Of a stretch of DNA of 35,335 nt, positions 6,945-35,200 are shown in pieces. Origin of the DNA: Armatimonadota bacterium (GTDB taxonomy: Bacteria; Vulcanimicrobiota; JACPDT01); the NCBI GenBank assembly GCA_016183865.1, contig JACPDT010000095.1:1-35335 (forward strand). Direction: 5' to 3'. The first letter of the stretch is position 1, and every line of letters begins with the position of its first letter. Position numbers and translations under genes: made by a program. The notes under the pieces were generated by a model, which was not told the DNA's origin, did not search any database, and saw only the letters and a list, made by a program, of their open reading frames with translations.

Positions 6945-8396
6945 ATGATTGTGCCGGTAAACAGCCACACCAATATCGCAGGAAATCCATACACTATAGC
7001 CCAATCGCCTGATCGCAAGGGGGAGCGAGCATCTGTTCAAGAGGACAGTTTCCGTTTCTCCCCAACGGATTTGACGCCCGAGGGCAACCTGAAGCTCATT
7101 GTCCAGACTTCGGATCAGCAACTGTTGGCCAGGCTGATGCACGAATGCGTTGATTGCGGCAAAGTGACAGGTCTCCTTTCACTCATTTCAGGGTTCTCGG
7201 CGGAGATCTCTCCCGCAGCCTATCAGAACATCTTCAGCAAGGTATCGGACAGGGTCTCCGTCACACTGGACGGGGAGGTCCTGGTCCCTAAGCCCGAGGA
7301 GCTGGCCTCCAACAATGGGGAGAGTTCGCAGCCTGCGAAGCTGGATGTGGCCCTTCCGACACTGGGTGTTGACAAGCTGCACCAGAAAGGGATCAAGGGG
7401 AAGGGGATCACCTGGGCCGTGATTGACACGGGAATCAATGCCTCCCATCCCGATTTGGAAGGGCAGGTCATCGGCTGGAAGGATTTCATCGAGGCTACCG
7501 ATTCTCCTGTGGACCCTCAGGGACATGGCACCCATGTGGGCTCCACGATTGACGGCACCGGAAAGGCCTCTGACGGCAAGTTCGTCGGTGTCGCCCCTGA
7601 GGCGAAGCTGGTCGGCGTGCGTGTTCTGGATGCGGACGGATCAGGGAGTTTTTCCGATGTGATCAAGGGAATCCAGTGGGTGGTGGAACACAAGGACGAA
7701 TTTGGGATCCGCGGCTTCAACATGTCTCTCGGAGGGACCTCTTTTTCTTCCTACAAGAACGATCCTGTGGCTCAAGCCGTTGAGAAGGCTGTCGCAGCAG
7801 GGCTTGTGGCCGAGATCGCCGCAGGGAATTCGGGACCCTCCCAGGGAACCGTCTCGACCCCGGGCATCGCGCCCTCCGCCAAAACCATCGGCGCCCTGGA
7901 TGACAAGGGAACCGTGGACCGCAGCGATGACGGCGTTGCGCGCTTCTCGGGCACGGGCCCCACCAAAGTGGACAAATTGCAGAAACCCGATCTTCTGTTC
8001 CCCGGGGTAAAGATCACGGCAGCCCTTTCGCCGGGCTCGGCCCTTGACTCTCCCGACATTCCCCACGTTGGGGACAAGTACATTACCATTTCCGGAACCT
8101 CCATGGCAACTCCTTATGGCTCCGGTGTGAGCATCCTGATGCTTTCCGTGAATCCGGACCTGACTCCGCAGCAGGTCAAAGAAATCAAGACCCGGACTGC
8201 GGAAAAGCTCGCCGATGTGGATGTGACAAGGCAGGGCTTTGGTGTCGGAATGCCGGAAAAGGCAGTTGCGGAAGCAGAAGCCCTCCTGCCGCCCGCACCG
8301 CCGGCGCCTGAGCCTCCTGTAGAGCCGCAGCCCCCCCCGCCTCCACCTTCGCAAGGAGAACCGGGCGAGCCTCCTGAGTGGCTGGTGGCGGCCTGA
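6945..8396 (+). CDS. Subtilisin-family (S8) serine protease
   Basis: Catalytic motifs: Asp AVIDTGINASHPDL, His DPQGHGTHVGSTI, Asn AAGNSGPSQG, Ser ISGTSMATPYGSG. Internal I9-like N-terminal region; proline-rich C-terminal tail; no obvious signal peptide. Confidence 0.92.
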   Translation: MIVPVNSHTNIAGNPYTIAQSPDRKGERASVQEDSFRFSPTDLTPEGNLKLIVQTSDQQLLARLMHECVDCGKVTGLLSLISGFSAEISPAAYQNIFSKVSDRVSVTLDGEVLVPKPEELASNNGESSQPAKLDVALPTLGVDKLHQKGIKGKGITWAVIDTGINASHPDLEGQVIGWKDFIEATDSPVDPQGHGTHVGSTIDGTGKASDGKFVGVAPEAKLVGVRVLDADGSGSFSDVIKGIQWVVEHKDEFGIRGFNMSLGGTSFSSYKNDPVAQAVEKAVAAGLVAEIAAGNSGPSQGTVSTPGIAPSAKTIGALDDKGTVDRSDDGVARFSGTGPTKVDKLQKPDLLFPGVKITAALSPGSALDSPDIPHVGDKYITISGTSMATPYGSGVSILMLSVNPDLTPQQVKEIKTRTAEKLADVDVTRQGFGVGMPEKAVAEAEALLPPAPPAPEPPVEPQPPPPPPSQGEPGEPPEWLVAA

Positions 8397-23667: not shown

Positions 23668-24759
23668 TTGCCGATGGCGGAAACGGCCAAATTCTCCATG
23701 GATGATTTGCTTAAGGCAACGATTGAACGGGGTGCATCCGACCTCCATATCACTGTGGGCCTCCCTCCCATGCTCAGAATCAATGGGAAAATTCAGCCCA
23801 CGGAGTTTCCTCGTCTGAGTCAGGATGACTCCAAAAGACTTATTTACAGTATACTCAACGACAAGCAAAAAGAGAAATTCGAGAAAACGTGGGAGCTGGA
23901 CTGCTCCCATGGCGTCCGCGGGTTCGGGCGTTTCAGAGTCAACGCATACAGGCAAAGGGGCGTCACCGGGGCCGCATTGCGGGCCATCCCGGGAAGCATC
24001 CCGAGCAGGGAGGAGTTGAATCTTCCCGGCATCCTCGATGATCTGGCAAGGAGGCCGCAGGGTTTGATTCTGGTGACCGGGGCGACGGGGGCAGGCAAGT
24101 CCACCACACTTGCCTGCATGCTGGATGCCGTCAACAACGACAAAGCCTGCCATCTCATGACAATCGAAGATCCCATTGAATATATTCATTACCACAAGAA
24201 GGCGATGGTGAACCAGCGTGAGTTGGGCCAGGATACCCAGTCCTGGGCGAATGCCTTGCGGGCGGTTCTTCGTGAAGACCCGGATGTCATCCTGGTCGGA
24301 GAGATGCGGGATCTGGAAACCATATCAGGCACATTGACCGCCGCCGAGACCGGTCACCTGGTCTTTTCCACTCTCCATACGGCCAATGCTCCACAAACTG
24401 TGGACCGCATCATTGACGTCTTCCCGCCTCATCAGCAGCAGCAGATTCGGGTTCAACTGGCTTCCGTCCTGGAAGGAGTGATTTCACAACAGCTTGTGCT
24501 GCGATCGGATGGTGTCGGCAGGCTCCCCGCCGTGGAGGTTCTCCAGGCGACTCCAGCCATCAGGAATCTGGTTCGGGAAGGGAAGACTCATCAGATTTAT
24601 ACAGCCATACAAACAGGCTCCAAGTACGGAATGCAGACCATGGATCAAGCCTTGTACGAGTTGATGAAACAGAATCAGATTACTTATGAGGAGGCCATGA
24701 ACCGCTCCATGCACCCCGATGATTTGAGACGTCTTGTCGAATCCGGCGAAAAGAGGTAG
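23668..24759 (+). CDS. pilT: Type IV pilus twitching motility ATPase PilT
   Basis: GASDLHITVGLPPMLRINGKI; LVTGATGAGKSTTLACMLDAVN; VLREDPDVILVGEMRDLETISGTLTAAETGHLVFSTLHTANAPQTVDRIIDVFPPHQQQQIRVQLASVLEGVISQQL. Confidence 0.95.
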   Translation: MPMAETAKFSMDDLLKATIERGASDLHITVGLPPMLRINGKIQPTEFPRLSQDDSKRLIYSILNDKQKEKFEKTWELDCSHGVRGFGRFRVNAYRQRGVTGAALRAIPGSIPSREELNLPGILDDLARRPQGLILVTGATGAGKSTTLACMLDAVNNDKACHLMTIEDPIEYIHYHKKAMVNQRELGQDTQSWANALRAVLREDPDVILVGEMRDLETISGTLTAAETGHLVFSTLHTANAPQTVDRIIDVFPPHQQQQIRVQLASVLEGVISQQLVLRSDGVGRLPAVEVLQATPAIRNLVREGKTHQIYTAIQTGSKYGMQTMDQALYELMKQNQITYEEAMNRSMHPDDLRRLVESGEKR

Positions 24760-24769
24760 GGAGACACGG

Positions 24770-25981
24770 ATGCCGACCTTCACTTACGAAGCGCTGGATG
24801 ACGAAGGAAAACTGGTCAAGGGGACTCTCCAGGGAATTGACCAGCGGGCAGTTATCAGTAAGCTGAAGGACAAGCGTTACACGATCACCAATATTCGGGA
24901 GAAACGGGAATTCCAGTTTCGTCCTCAGTTTCTCTCCCGGATCAGCCAGCAGTCGTTGACGATTTTTTCGAGACAGCTCGCAACCATGGTCCACGCCGGT
25001 CTGGCACTGACGCGCTGCATTGATGTGTGCATGAATCAGGGGGATGACCGGAAGCTCGCCGAGGTCCTCAGGCAGGTCAAAGAGGACATTTCCGGGGGCG
25101 TGTCCCTGTCAAACGCCCTGGCGAAGCATGGCAATGTTTTTTCTCCACTGTATGTGAGCCTGATCAAGGCAGGGGAGCTTTCCGGAGAAATGTCGGAGAT
25201 TCTCGAACGCCTGGCTACCTTCCTGGAAAAGGACTTTGCCCTGGCTCAGAAAGTGAAATCAGCCATGGCGTATCCGTTGGTAATTTTCGGAGTTTGCATT
25301 GTCCTGGTTTTCCTGCTCGTGACGTTCATCTTTCCGAATTTTGTGGCTCTCTTCGAGGGACTCAATGTCAAGCTGCCCTTGTCGACAAAGCTCTTGATTC
25401 TCATGACCAACACGGTGCGCAATCCGATTTACCTCATACCCGCTATTTCATTGATCGGCGTTCTGGGATTTCTGCTCGCGCAGTATGTCAAGACACCGGT
25501 GGGGAAGCGCCAGTTTCATGCTCTCTTGCTCAGAGTTCCCATCTTCGGCCCGATTTCAAAAAAGGTGGCAGTGGCGAGGTTTTGCCGCACTTTTGGGACC
25601 CTCTTTGCGAGCGGTGTTCCCATCATGCACGCCCTCGAGATCGTGGGGCAATCCTCGGGAAATGAAGTGATCAATGAGACATCTGAGCTTATGCGTTCCA
25701 GTCTGAGGGGCGGGTCGCATCTTTCCCAACCCATGCAGGAAAGTCGCGTTTTCCCTCCGCTGGTAGTCGGAATGGTGACGGTCGGCGAACAGACAGGCAA
25801 TCTTCATATCATGCTCCACAAGATTTCCGATTTCTACGAAACTGAAGTGGATTACGCTCTCTCGGGGTTGACATCCCTGATCGAACCGATTATGATAGCA
25901 GGAATGGGACTTATCGTGGCTTTTGTGGTTATTTCCGTCTTCATGCCTGTCTATCAGTTGTTGGGAACTTTTAGCGGATAG
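24770..25981 (+). CDS. pilC: Type IV pilus inner membrane platform protein PilC, copy 1
   Basis: MPTFTYEALDDEGKLVKGTL; paired T2SSF domains; FPPLVVGMVTVGEQTGNLHIMLHKISDFYETEVDYALSGLTSLIEPIMI. Confidence 0.93.
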   Translation: MPTFTYEALDDEGKLVKGTLQGIDQRAVISKLKDKRYTITNIREKREFQFRPQFLSRISQQSLTIFSRQLATMVHAGLALTRCIDVCMNQGDDRKLAEVLRQVKEDISGGVSLSNALAKHGNVFSPLYVSLIKAGELSGEMSEILERLATFLEKDFALAQKVKSAMAYPLVIFGVCIVLVFLLVTFIFPNFVALFEGLNVKLPLSTKLLILMTNTVRNPIYLIPAISLIGVLGFLLAQYVKTPVGKRQFHALLLRVPIFGPISKKVAVARFCRTFGTLFASGVPIMHALEIVGQSSGNEVINETSELMRSSLRGGSHLSQPMQESRVFPPLVVGMVTVGEQTGNLHIMLHKISDFYETEVDYALSGLTSLIEPIMIAGMGLIVAFVVISVFMPVYQLLGTFSG

Positions 25982-25993
25982 GGGGTGAGACAT

Positions 25994-26053
25994 ATGTGGT
26001 GGTGGCTACTCGTACTGGCTTTGATCATTGTGGGTAACACGGGAAAAATCTGA
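25994..26053 (+). CDS. Candidate 19-aa membrane microprotein MWWWLLVLALIIVGNTGKI
   Basis: ATG TGG TGG TGG CTA CTC GTA CTG GCT TTG ATC ATT GTG GGT AAC ACG GGA AAA ATC TGA, preceded by GGGGGTGAG at a usable RBS distance, in the gap between two pilC genes. Below the size cutoff of the ORF track. Confidence 0.45.
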   Translation: MWWWLLVLALIIVGNTGKI

Positions 26054-26069
26054 GGGAGGAGACCATTGG

Positions 26070-27296
26070 ATGCCTACCTATGTTTATGAGGCGCGAGACG
26101 CCGAAGGGAAATTGCTCAAGGGCACCATGCAGGCAGACAACCAGCGCATGGTGATCAATAAGCTTCGGGAGCAAAAATGCACCATTACCAACATAACTGA
26201 AAAAACGACGGGGGTCGCCCAAGCTGATCTCATGTCCTGGCTCCGTAAGTTGAAGCGAGTCAATGAGCAATCCCTCGTTGTCTTTTCCAGGCAATTTGCA
26301 ACCATGATCAATGCCGGTCTCGCCATGGTCCGCTGCCTGGACATCCTTGCCGAGCAGGCGGAAGACAAGAAGCTCCAGGAAGTTCTTATCAGCGTTCGCA
26401 GGGATGTGGAGGGCGGCTCTACGTTGTCGGCGGCTCTGGGGAAGTTCCCCGACATCTTCTCAACTCTCTATGTGAGCATGGTCAAGGCCGGCGAGATGGG
26501 AGGCGTTCTGGACGAGGTTCTGGACAGGCTTGCGGGTTTCATGGAAAAGGATTTCGGCCTCAAGAAGAAGGTGAAATCTGCGATGACCTATCCGGCGGTC
26601 ATCCTGTTCATGGCCCTGGGCATCGTCTTCTTCCTGGTTACATATATCCTTCCCACCTTTGTATCGCTCTTTGAAGGGATGCAACTGACGTTGCCCCTCC
26701 CCACCAAGATACTGATAACTTTTACAAAAGGCGCCAGAGACCTCAGAATCGTCGTCCCCGTTTTCATCGTTTTGGGGATCGGCGGATTCAGTCTCAGTCA
26801 GTACGTAAAGTCCCCTGTGGGGAAAAAGCAGTTTGACTTGTTGAAGCTCAGTGTCCCCGTTTTCGGCCTTTTGACGAAAAAAGTGGCTATATCCCGATTT
26901 TGTCGGACCCTCGGAACATTGCTCAGCTCCGGCGTCCCCATCATGCAGGCGCTGGAGATCGTAGGGAGGGCCTCGGGAAACGAAATCGTGGCCCTTACCG
27001 TCACCAAGATCAGGGACAGCATCCGTGAAGGTGAAAGCATCGCTGTCCCCATGGGAGAAAGTCGCTTGTTCCCGCCGATGGTGACCCAGATGGTGGGAGT
27101 GGGTGAGGAAACAGGAAATTTGGATGCCATGCTCGCGAAGATCTCCGATTTTTATGACACCGAAGTCGAGTACCTGCTGGCATCCCTGACGTCGCTGCTC
27201 GAGCCGATCATGATCGTAGCCATGGGTGGAATCGTCGGTTTCATCGTCATCGCGGTATTCCTCCCGCTCTATCAGCTCATCGGTCAACTGGGGTAG
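26070..27296 (+). CDS. pilC: Type IV pilus inner membrane platform protein PilC, copy 2 (tandem paralogue)
   Basis: MPTYVYEARDAEGKLLKGTM; same T2SSF architecture and C-terminus as copy 1; RBS GGGAGGAG. Confidence 0.93.
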   Translation: MPTYVYEARDAEGKLLKGTMQADNQRMVINKLREQKCTITNITEKTTGVAQADLMSWLRKLKRVNEQSLVVFSRQFATMINAGLAMVRCLDILAEQAEDKKLQEVLISVRRDVEGGSTLSAALGKFPDIFSTLYVSMVKAGEMGGVLDEVLDRLAGFMEKDFGLKKKVKSAMTYPAVILFMALGIVFFLVTYILPTFVSLFEGMQLTLPLPTKILITFTKGARDLRIVVPVFIVLGIGGFSLSQYVKSPVGKKQFDLLKLSVPVFGLLTKKVAISRFCRTLGTLLSSGVPIMQALEIVGRASGNEIVALTVTKIRDSIREGESIAVPMGESRLFPPMVTQMVGVGEETGNLDAMLAKISDFYDTEVEYLLASLTSLLEPIMIVAMGGIVGFIVIAVFLPLYQLIGQLG

Positions 27297-32607: not shown

Positions 32608-33789
32608 CTACAGTTGGAGGTCCACAATTTGTCCTTCCAGCACGAAAGGAAAGTTGCCGTCATTGATTGCCGCTGTTACCAGCTCTACGATGTATGGGTC
32701 GAACTGACTCCCTGCCCCGTTTTTCAACTCCTCGATCGCGTGCTCCACAGTCAACGCCGGTCTGTATGAACGATTTGAGGTCATCGCATCAAAGCAGTCC
32801 GCAACGGTTATGATTCTTGCTTCCCATGGTATATTCTCTCCCGCCAGGCTGTCGGGATAGCCGTTTCCATTGTACCACTCGTGATGGTGGAGCACCCCTG
32901 AAGTGATCGGCAATATTTGCTTCAACGGGGTGATGATCTGGGCGCTCCATACGGGATGCTTTTTCATGGTGTTGTATTCCTCGACAGTGAGGGCTCCGGG
33001 CTTGTTCAGGATCGCCTCGGAGACGCCGATCTTTCCCACATCATGCAGGAGGCCCGCCTCTTTTATCAAACGCGCTTTTGCCAGATCCACCTCCAACAGC
33101 CGGGCAATCTTGAAGGAGGAGGCCGCGACCCTGCCTGAATGGCCCGCCGTATACCTGTCCCGGGCATCAATGGCGGCAGCCAGGGAACGGATGGTGGCCA
33201 AAAGGAGCTCTTTGTTCTGATCCTGAAGAATCGCATTCTGTATGGCTACCGCTGCCTGACTGGCTATTGTGGCAAGCCATTCCTGGTCCTCTTTGCTGTA
33301 TCCCTGGGAATTCAGCCGCTCTCCCAGGCAAAGGAACCCGATGAGTCGCTCCTTTACCACAAGGGGAATCCAGATCTTCGAAGGGAACCCCTGAATCTTG
33401 TTCCTGTATTCGTGAAAAAAAGGCCTCCAGATCCCATCCACTTGCTCCGGGTGCAGGTTCCTGGGTTCTTTCACGATATCTCTTTCGAGGAAGACATTCA
33501 GGGAAAGAGTGAATGGGTCGGAGGAGGCGGGGGAAAACCCCTTGAAGCTCCGGAGATCGAGGGTCGAATCCTGAGTTTGAAGGAGAACCGCTCCTGACCT
33601 GGCGCCCATGAGTCCCATGCAGTTGTAAAGAGCGAGATTCAGGCGATTTTCCAGAGTCTGATCGGAGACCAATTCCTTGGCAACCTCAAAAGAAGTAGCC
33701 AACTGGAACGCCTTGCGCTCAAGCTCGGTTTGAGCCTTCTCCAGTTCCCCTATAAGGTTCTTGCTGAGCGAATCGTACTTGTCCCCCAC
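32608..33789 (-). CDS. GAF domain plus HD-GYP phosphodiesterase-like protein
   Basis: GAF region IWIPLVVKERLIGFLCLGE; HD-GYP core GHSGRVAASSFKIARLL...GLLHDVGKIGV...HHHEWYNGNGYPDSLAGENIP...RIITVADCFDAMTSNRSYR. Confidence 0.92.
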   Translation of the reverse strand: MGDKYDSLSKNLIGELEKAQTELERKAFQLATSFEVAKELVSDQTLENRLNLALYNCMGLMGARSGAVLLQTQDSTLDLRSFKGFSPASSDPFTLSLNVFLERDIVKEPRNLHPEQVDGIWRPFFHEYRNKIQGFPSKIWIPLVVKERLIGFLCLGERLNSQGYSKEDQEWLATIASQAAVAIQNAILQDQNKELLLATIRSLAAAIDARDRYTAGHSGRVAASSFKIARLLEVDLAKARLIKEAGLLHDVGKIGVSEAILNKPGALTVEEYNTMKKHPVWSAQIITPLKQILPITSGVLHHHEWYNGNGYPDSLAGENIPWEARIITVADCFDAMTSNRSYRPALTVEHAIEELKNGAGSQFDPYIVELVTAAINDGNFPFVLEGQIVDLQL

Positions 33790-33899
33790 GGCGGGCGCAC
33801 TACCTCCAACGCTGATACACCCTTTGGAATTCCAGAAGCATGTCCGGATTCCTCCAGTTTTTCCGTCATATCCGCATATTTGGGCCTCATTGATGTACT

Positions 33900-34943
33900 C
33901 TATGTCGGGCCGGTCACACGATGAAAAAAGATGTCCCGACTCACGGAGGGATCGAAGCAGGCTTCAAGATGAATCCTGGCGCCGCGGCTGACTGCCAGCG
34001 GCGGCATTGCCTGTATCACCTGGCCTGCCCAGGACTTGGGCTGCACAGGCGCAAAAGGAGAAGTGCTTATGGTTGTCAGCTCATCGAGCCTGGCTTTGAA
34101 AAACATCGCTGTTCCACTATGGGTACCTGATCTCCTGGCTTGAAGGACCAGTTCTTTCCTGAAAGGCGCCTCCCTGGGCAGGCGGAGGAGATCGAACATC
34201 CGGATACAAGCTTCATCAGTGAGAATTCGCTCACCTGATCTCAAAGGGGAAGTCGGCTCCATTCCCCCTACATTTCTGTGGAACTTTTCTTTCTCCAGCG
34301 ATTGAATCACGGATTCCCTGTAATGGTCGGCAATTGAAGAAAGATCCAGACCATACACCTCGCTGAAACGCTCCACCACAGCCGTGTGCTCTTCGGCGCG
34401 CAAGTAGCGCTCCTCAAGGAGATCGGATTCGATCCCCGCCACCCAAAGGGAGAAATGGCTTGGCATAGTCGTTCCACCGGGTTTCAGAAAACGGGATACG
34501 CCGTCACTGAGAGTTGGAATCAGCCTTTCCTCAAGCGGATTTATTCCGATAATTTCAGAATAAATCAGGTCCACTTTTTCTGGAAGCTCCGCATCTGTTG
34601 AGTTTCCAGGAATCAGGGTTATGACTTCTTGCAGCCCGTTGGCCTTTGTTATTTCACGGGCCACAGAAATAATGGCGCTCTCCTCTATGGCATACACGTG
34701 TTTTGCCCCTGCGATCGCGGCAAAACAGGCCAGAATACCTGTCCCACATCCGATTTCAAGAACGGTTTTTCCGCGCACGTTCCTGCTGATTGCCTCTCTG
34801 TATGCCGAGGTTCTGGTATAATCCCACAGCATGCGGACATGAGTCGCCACATCTCCGAACCATCGCGGCGCCAAAGTACGGTCCCTATGGTTCTCGGGTA
34901 TCAGGATGCCACAGCGAACCAGCTTTGATAAGGTTTCTTCCAT
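33900..34943 (-). CDS. Protein arginine N-methyltransferase (PRMT)-like SAM-dependent methyltransferase
   Basis: HVRMLWDYTRTSAYREAI; VLEIGCGTGILACFAAIAGAKHVYAIEES; KVDLIYSEIIGINPLEERLIPTL; FLKPGGTTMPSHFSLWVAGIES. These match the order of the YFxxY-region, motif I, double-E and post-II segments of class I PRMTs. Confidence 0.75.
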   Translation of the reverse strand: MEETLSKLVRCGILIPENHRDRTLAPRWFGDVATHVRMLWDYTRTSAYREAISRNVRGKTVLEIGCGTGILACFAAIAGAKHVYAIEESAIISVAREITKANGLQEVITLIPGNSTDAELPEKVDLIYSEIIGINPLEERLIPTLSDGVSRFLKPGGTTMPSHFSLWVAGIESDLLEERYLRAEEHTAVVERFSEVYGLDLSSIADHYRESVIQSLEKEKFHRNVGGMEPTSPLRSGERILTDEACIRMFDLLRLPREAPFRKELVLQARRSGTHSGTAMFFKARLDELTTISTSPFAPVQPKSWAGQVIQAMPPLAVSRGARIHLEACFDPSVSRDIFFHRVTGPT

Positions 34944-35200
34944 TTTCTGTCGGAGTACCTGGAAAGGTAACGCTCTATGGCCTTGCCCTGTTCCGTAAAA
35001 AGCTTGAACTGATCAAGAAGAGGTATGACATCCGCGCTCAATCTTATGCTGTTCCGGTTCATGGAAGCCTGTGCGAACAGTTGGCCTTCCTCGTTCCACT
35101 TCAGGGAGAGATCCCCGGTGAGCCTGAGCTTCGTCTTGCGATTCAGCAGATTCTTTGGTGAAACAATCGTTTTTCCCATCTTGTCCTGCGAGTTCTGCAA
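34901..35200 (-). CDS. Probable N-terminal portion of the PRMT-like protein (PqqD/RRE-like winged-helix pattern), separated by a 1-nt frame change
   Basis: ...SMNRNSIRLSADVIPLLDQFKLFTEQGKAIERYLSRYSDRK in one frame joins MEETLSKLVRCGILIPEN in the next at an AAAA run (34943-34946). Together they read as one helix-wing segment. Confidence 0.5.
   Translation of the reverse strand: MQNSQDKMGKTIVSPKNLLNRKTKLRLTGDLSLKWNEEGQLFAQASMNRNSIRLSADVIPLLDQFKLFTEQGKAIERYLSRYSDRKWKKPYQSWFAVAS

Follow-up and report, generated by a model that had tools for sequence, protein, structure and literature searches.

Here, we describe a bacterial gene architecture in which an RRE (PqqD-like) domain is fused to a PRMT-fold methyltransferase, an architecture that is real and, to our knowledge, undescribed. 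In the window, by which we mean the whole stretch of 35,335 nucleotides that was analysed and which forms one entire contig of a MAG totalling 353 contigs, the locus is best read as one ancestral gene of this kind whose frame is offset within the RRE domain, and whose intact product would methylate arginine under the guidance of a bound peptide or small protein. To this reading as a whole we assign a probability of about one half. In eukaryotes the methylation of arginine in proteins is a core modification, and few established bacterial cases are known to us. With a peptide-recognition domain built into a PRMT-fold enzyme, bacteria would have a specific and testable route by which arginine in their peptides or proteins becomes methylated.

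The gene and its single-frame homologues

The locus consists of the following features, all on the minus strand.

33900-34943, minus strand: ORF of 347 aa encoding a class I SAM-dependent methyltransferase of PRMT fold (from the ORF translation, Pfam and PDB phmmer; fold from the homologue L023)
34943-35179, minus strand: N-terminal portion of the RRE/PqqD-like domain, read in the upstream frame, MGKTIVSP...YSDRK (from homology to the N-termini of L021, L023 and L039 and to PqqD)
34890-34943, minus strand: methyltransferase-frame end of the RRE-like domain, comprising its final helix and strand, MEETLSKLVRCGILIPEN (these align with alpha3 and the terminal strand in the single-frame homologues)
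34943-34946, minus strand: AAAA run at which the two frames meet with a -1 offset
35184-35187, minus strand: AGGA, Shine-Dalgarno-like, ahead of ATG 35179 (direct reading)

The upstream ORF starts at TTG 35200 or ATG 35179, contains SMNRNSIRLS...YSDRK and reaches its stop at 34901. As assembled, the window gene encodes no intact fusion. An earlier note on this DNA had placed one set of motifs in each of the two ORFs, with a shift of frame by one nucleotide at the A4 run, and this holds on inspection: the offset is -1, and re-reading one A, or supplying one extra A, at the run results in YSDRK-MEETLSK. Ahead of the junction, codon preference points to the upstream frame; past it, the preference passes to the methyltransferase frame, weakly so over the first 48 codons.

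An alignment-based scan of genome contigs yielded 80 loci, three of which carry the methyltransferase and the upstream domain in one open frame. These single-frame fusions belong to a Myxococcales MAG of the Myxococcota (L021), a Terriglobia MAG of the Acidobacteriota (L023, in which one match covers query residues 12-384) and a Verrucomicrobiia MAG of the Verrucomicrobiota (L039). The homologues had been proposed as the place to look for the two parts as unrelated separate genes; no relative of that kind was seen and the three fusions are the opposite of it, which bears out the proposal that a frameshift has split one gene. When the window protein alone served as query, no relative was returned from genome contigs and viral contigs. 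The search within the same phylum gave weak PRMT-fold matches only, none shown to be fused, and tblastn against phages and plasmids recognised no RRE-fused relative.

A tree built from 77 catalytic domains puts L021 and L023 closest to the window by path, though this placement lacks firm support. L039 branches elsewhere in this tree, so more than one origin of the fusion is possible. Other PRMT-fold relatives among the matches are fused to TPR repeats, stand alone adjoining redox genes or lie inside NRPS-like proteins. Immediately downstream of the fused gene in L039 lies an ORF of 217 aa (7223-7876) that appears 2-oxoglutarate-oxygenase-like by eye and has no Pfam match. In a same-phylum genome, L007 (23-2391) comprises a B12-binding radical SAM gene that overlaps a gene for a PRMT-fold methyltransferase in which both glutamates are kept.

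The catalytic and N-terminal domains

The catalytic part is of PRMT type, with a similarity well above that of chance, in agreement with what had been claimed for it. Its closest match in a phmmer search of the PDB is PRMT6 (1e-33), Pfam PRMT_C (PF22528) scores 32.2 bits against a cut-off of 27, and a full-length model of L023 compared with the PDB by Foldseek matches PRMTs at about 1e-22. Three sequence elements can be located in the window.

34728-34763, minus strand: SAM-binding motif I, VLEIGCGTGILA
34527-34562, minus strand: PRMT double-E loop, YSEIIGINPLEE, with E130 and E139 of the ORF at a spacing of 9 as in PRMT6
34020-34037, minus strand: position of the THW loop, reading KSWAGQ, in which Trp is retained and His is replaced by Ser

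Motif I and both double-E glutamates are present in the window, L021, L023 and L039, and the retention of these residues makes arginine methylation by enzymes of the window type possible. The His of the THW motif, lacking in the window, is missing in several bacterial relatives too. Eukaryotic class I PRMTs (PRMT6, PRMT1 and CARM1), which are the best PDB matches by both sequence and fold, share with the window protein the Rossmann core, motif I, a double-E of equal spacing and PRMT_C, whereas the window protein departs from them in its low identity, in KSW for THW and in an RRE-like N-terminus that replaces the eukaryotic N-terminal modules.

The N-terminal domain resembles RREs and not regulators, as judged from profile comparison and a predicted fold. 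A profile of the four N-termini (window, L021, L023 and L039) was compared by hhalign with 28 PqqD domains from the window genome and relatives, giving 78.7% and a score of 30.5 with the register kept over the entire domain. The maximum score in 100 column shuffles of this comparison was 14.6, and a MarR control profile reached 3.2% with a score of 16.6 against the same N-termini. PqqD was not recognised in the N-terminal part by Pfam and NCBIfam models, and PF05402 (PqqD) gave no match above its cut-off in the window, L021, L023 or L039.

AlphaFold2 was applied to full-length L023 with an alignment of 18 rows. In the resulting model (pLDDT 82; 87 for the N-terminal domain modelled alone) the N-terminus is predicted to have four short strands followed by three helices and one last strand (b-b-b-b-a-a-a-b). 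A Foldseek search of the PDB with this domain gave a list whose first 38 entries are, with few exceptions, RRE-bearing RiPP proteins; TigE and MccB come first, and ThcOx, TbiB1, PqqD, the PbtF RRE, TruD and heterocyclase structures are among them. The best E-value of 1.6e-3 is modest, in keeping with the small size of the domain, and the evidence lies in the consistency of the list. The fold evidence comes from L023, which is about 24% identical to the window protein in the compared part; the order of strands and helices is seen on the L023 model and is assigned to the window by alignment only. Both the profile comparison and the structure prediction run on this homologue, with matches dominated by RRE proteins, favour the PqqD/RRE-like domain that the earlier note had proposed.

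Substrate, function and related enzymes

In the intact enzyme, the beta3/alpha3 cleft of the RRE-like domain would clasp part of a peptide or small protein, and an arginine of this bound substrate would be offered to the PRMT active site. There E130 and E139 would fix the guanidinium for methyl transfer from SAM. Set beside the observed architecture, the homologous fusions, the conserved motifs and the fold predicted on a homologue, leader-guided arginine methylation by an RRE-PRMT fusion is plausible, with peptide binding, the arginine target and a RiPP-type substrate all putative. Tentatively, and at clearly less than even odds, RRE-PRMT fusions could constitute a new class of peptide-guided arginine methyltransferases in at least four bacterial phyla, which would bring guanidino methylation into ribosomal-peptide tailoring, or into the tailoring of a single dedicated protein. 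On this view, the relatives of PRMT fold in lasso-peptide clusters would have been adapted to a different methylation chemistry.

A substrate was sought in the neighbourhoods. The surroundings of the window gene, with only 156 bases of contig ahead of ATG 35179, revealed no precursor peptide, and neither did those of L021, L023 or L039. A lasso-type leader was likewise absent near the fused loci, and the search for a short peptide common to them gave nothing convincing, the only results being weak, scattered matches and shadows of the gene on the antisense strand. The short precursor peptides that the earlier note had suggested looking for near homologues were not encountered at the fused loci. 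Downstream of the window gene, an ORF of 46 aa (33750-33890) was considered as a precursor peptide and rejected, the coding signal being in another frame.

The same architecture might also operate without RiPP biosynthesis. The RRE-like domain would then recruit one cellular protein, or another part of a complex, to a dedicated protein arginine methyltransferase, and the TPR domains of the Rhizobium and Erythrobacter relatives may act likewise. We consider this doubtful as it stands but a serious contender. It agrees with the failure to find a short peptide common to the fused loci and with neighbourhoods that are not RiPP-like, which comprise an RND pump, DUF1259, a papain-like protease and an ABC ATPase in L021 and, by eye, a glycosidase-like protein and an FG-GAP repeat protein in L023. 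The N-terminal module is moreover swapped among relatives, being TPR repeats in Rhizobium and others and RRE-like in the window gene, and the window genome has RRE-like domains on Memo and M50-peptidase proteins. On the other hand, in structure the domain matches RiPP leader-binding domains best, and some PRMT-fold relatives are located in lasso-type clusters.

That the catalytic part acts on a small molecule, free arginine, in the manner of SznE, with the N-terminal domain as a structural or regulatory winged helix, is unlikely. SznE methylates free arginine (PMC11705231). The double-E is common to the window protein and to bacterial enzymes of PRMT fold such as SznE/StzE and their relations, which frequently bear the annotation L11 methyltransferase; this likeness comes from general background and a review and not from direct comparison. 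Two PRMT-fold relatives (L010 and L016) adjoin genes for an iron-containing redox enzyme, a Rieske protein and an ATP-grasp protein, a context reminiscent of SznE/SznF logic. However, these two differ from the window in having no N-terminal RRE-like domain and a different gene context, they fall elsewhere in the tree, and such partner genes were not seen at the window's end or in L021, L023 and L039. The domain of the fused proteins is, in addition, like RREs rather than regulators.

The pairing of a PRMT fold with peptide recognition has a counterpart in four PRMT-fold relatives (L044, L068, L073 and L077) that lie within lasso-type clusters. These clusters contain an asparagine synthase (by Pfam in L044, L068 and L077, by similarity in L073) together with transglutaminase-like and kinase-like genes, and a discrete PqqD is present in L068, L073 and L077. 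Lasso-type leader motifs and precursor-like peptides occur in L044 and L068, the methyltransferases of which have a C-terminal PqqD-like domain (hhalign 71% and 91%, respectively).

L044, 785-2359: region of the PRMT-fold methyltransferase in a lasso-type cluster
L068, 3337-8604: region of the PRMT-fold methyltransferase in a lasso-type cluster

Like the window protein, these enzymes combine a PRMT fold with an RRE, but the RRE is at the opposite end or separate, and one or both double-E glutamates have been lost in all four. Because of this loss they support the pairing of the fold with peptide recognition and not arginine chemistry. They are possibly a new lasso-peptide tailoring methyltransferase; two reviews (PMC9266682, PMC13352647) yielded lasso-peptide methyltransferases of the carboxyl or aspartate type. 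Since the set divides enzymes that keep both catalytic glutamates from lasso-cluster relatives without them, the question of chemistry is directly testable.

RRE-fused RiPP enzymes such as MccB, TigE, LynD/TruD and fused lasso B proteins also carry an RRE-like domain on a modifying enzyme; the window differs from them in its PRMT-like catalytic domain and in that no adjacent precursor was found. RRE-Memo and RRE-JmjC fusions (PMC12710340) likewise have such a domain on an enzyme outside classical RiPP pathways, the catalytic domain in the window being instead a methyltransferase. In their main text, the RRE-Finder paper (PMC7470986) and its 2025 sequel (PMC12710340) present many RRE fusions, Memo and glycosyltransferases included, with no mention of PRMT fusions, and no RRE-PRMT fusion was found in a sample of the open-access literature.

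Other genes of the window genome bear domains of this family. An RRE-like domain is fused to a Memo-like protein on contig C324 (L020, 105-1364; Pfam Memo 3e-42), and on contig C210 an M50-type membrane peptidase carries a PqqD-like domain (L019, 1384-3171). Contigs C19 and C233 contain a PqqD-radical SAM-SPASM fusion and a discrete PqqD adjoining a radical SAM-SPASM gene (L017 and L018), and these are likely RiPP genes of this genome.

Origin of the frame offset

The offset in the window gene is most likely a one-base indel, arising from assembly or from mutation, and not a programmed event. Very little probability attaches to two separate overlapping genes, one for a small RRE-like protein and one for a methyltransferase with its start at ATG 34943. 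In the assembly both ORFs are open and this ATG is present, but the split lies inside the RRE fold, no Shine-Dalgarno sequence precedes ATG 34943, and in each of the three homologues that have both parts a single frame encodes them. Production of the fusion protein by programmed -1 frameshifting at A-AAA-TGG is the least credible explanation of all, for although a slip at AAA would yield exactly YSDRK-MEETL, an X-XXY-YYZ slippery heptamer is absent by reading, the RNA around the junction folds no better than shuffles (z 0.44) and the homologues encode the fusion without any shift.

Elsewhere in the window, positions 24734-25981 and 26028-27296 hold a tandem pair of PilC/GspF-like genes, identified by their resemblance to each other and to the PilC/GspF family.
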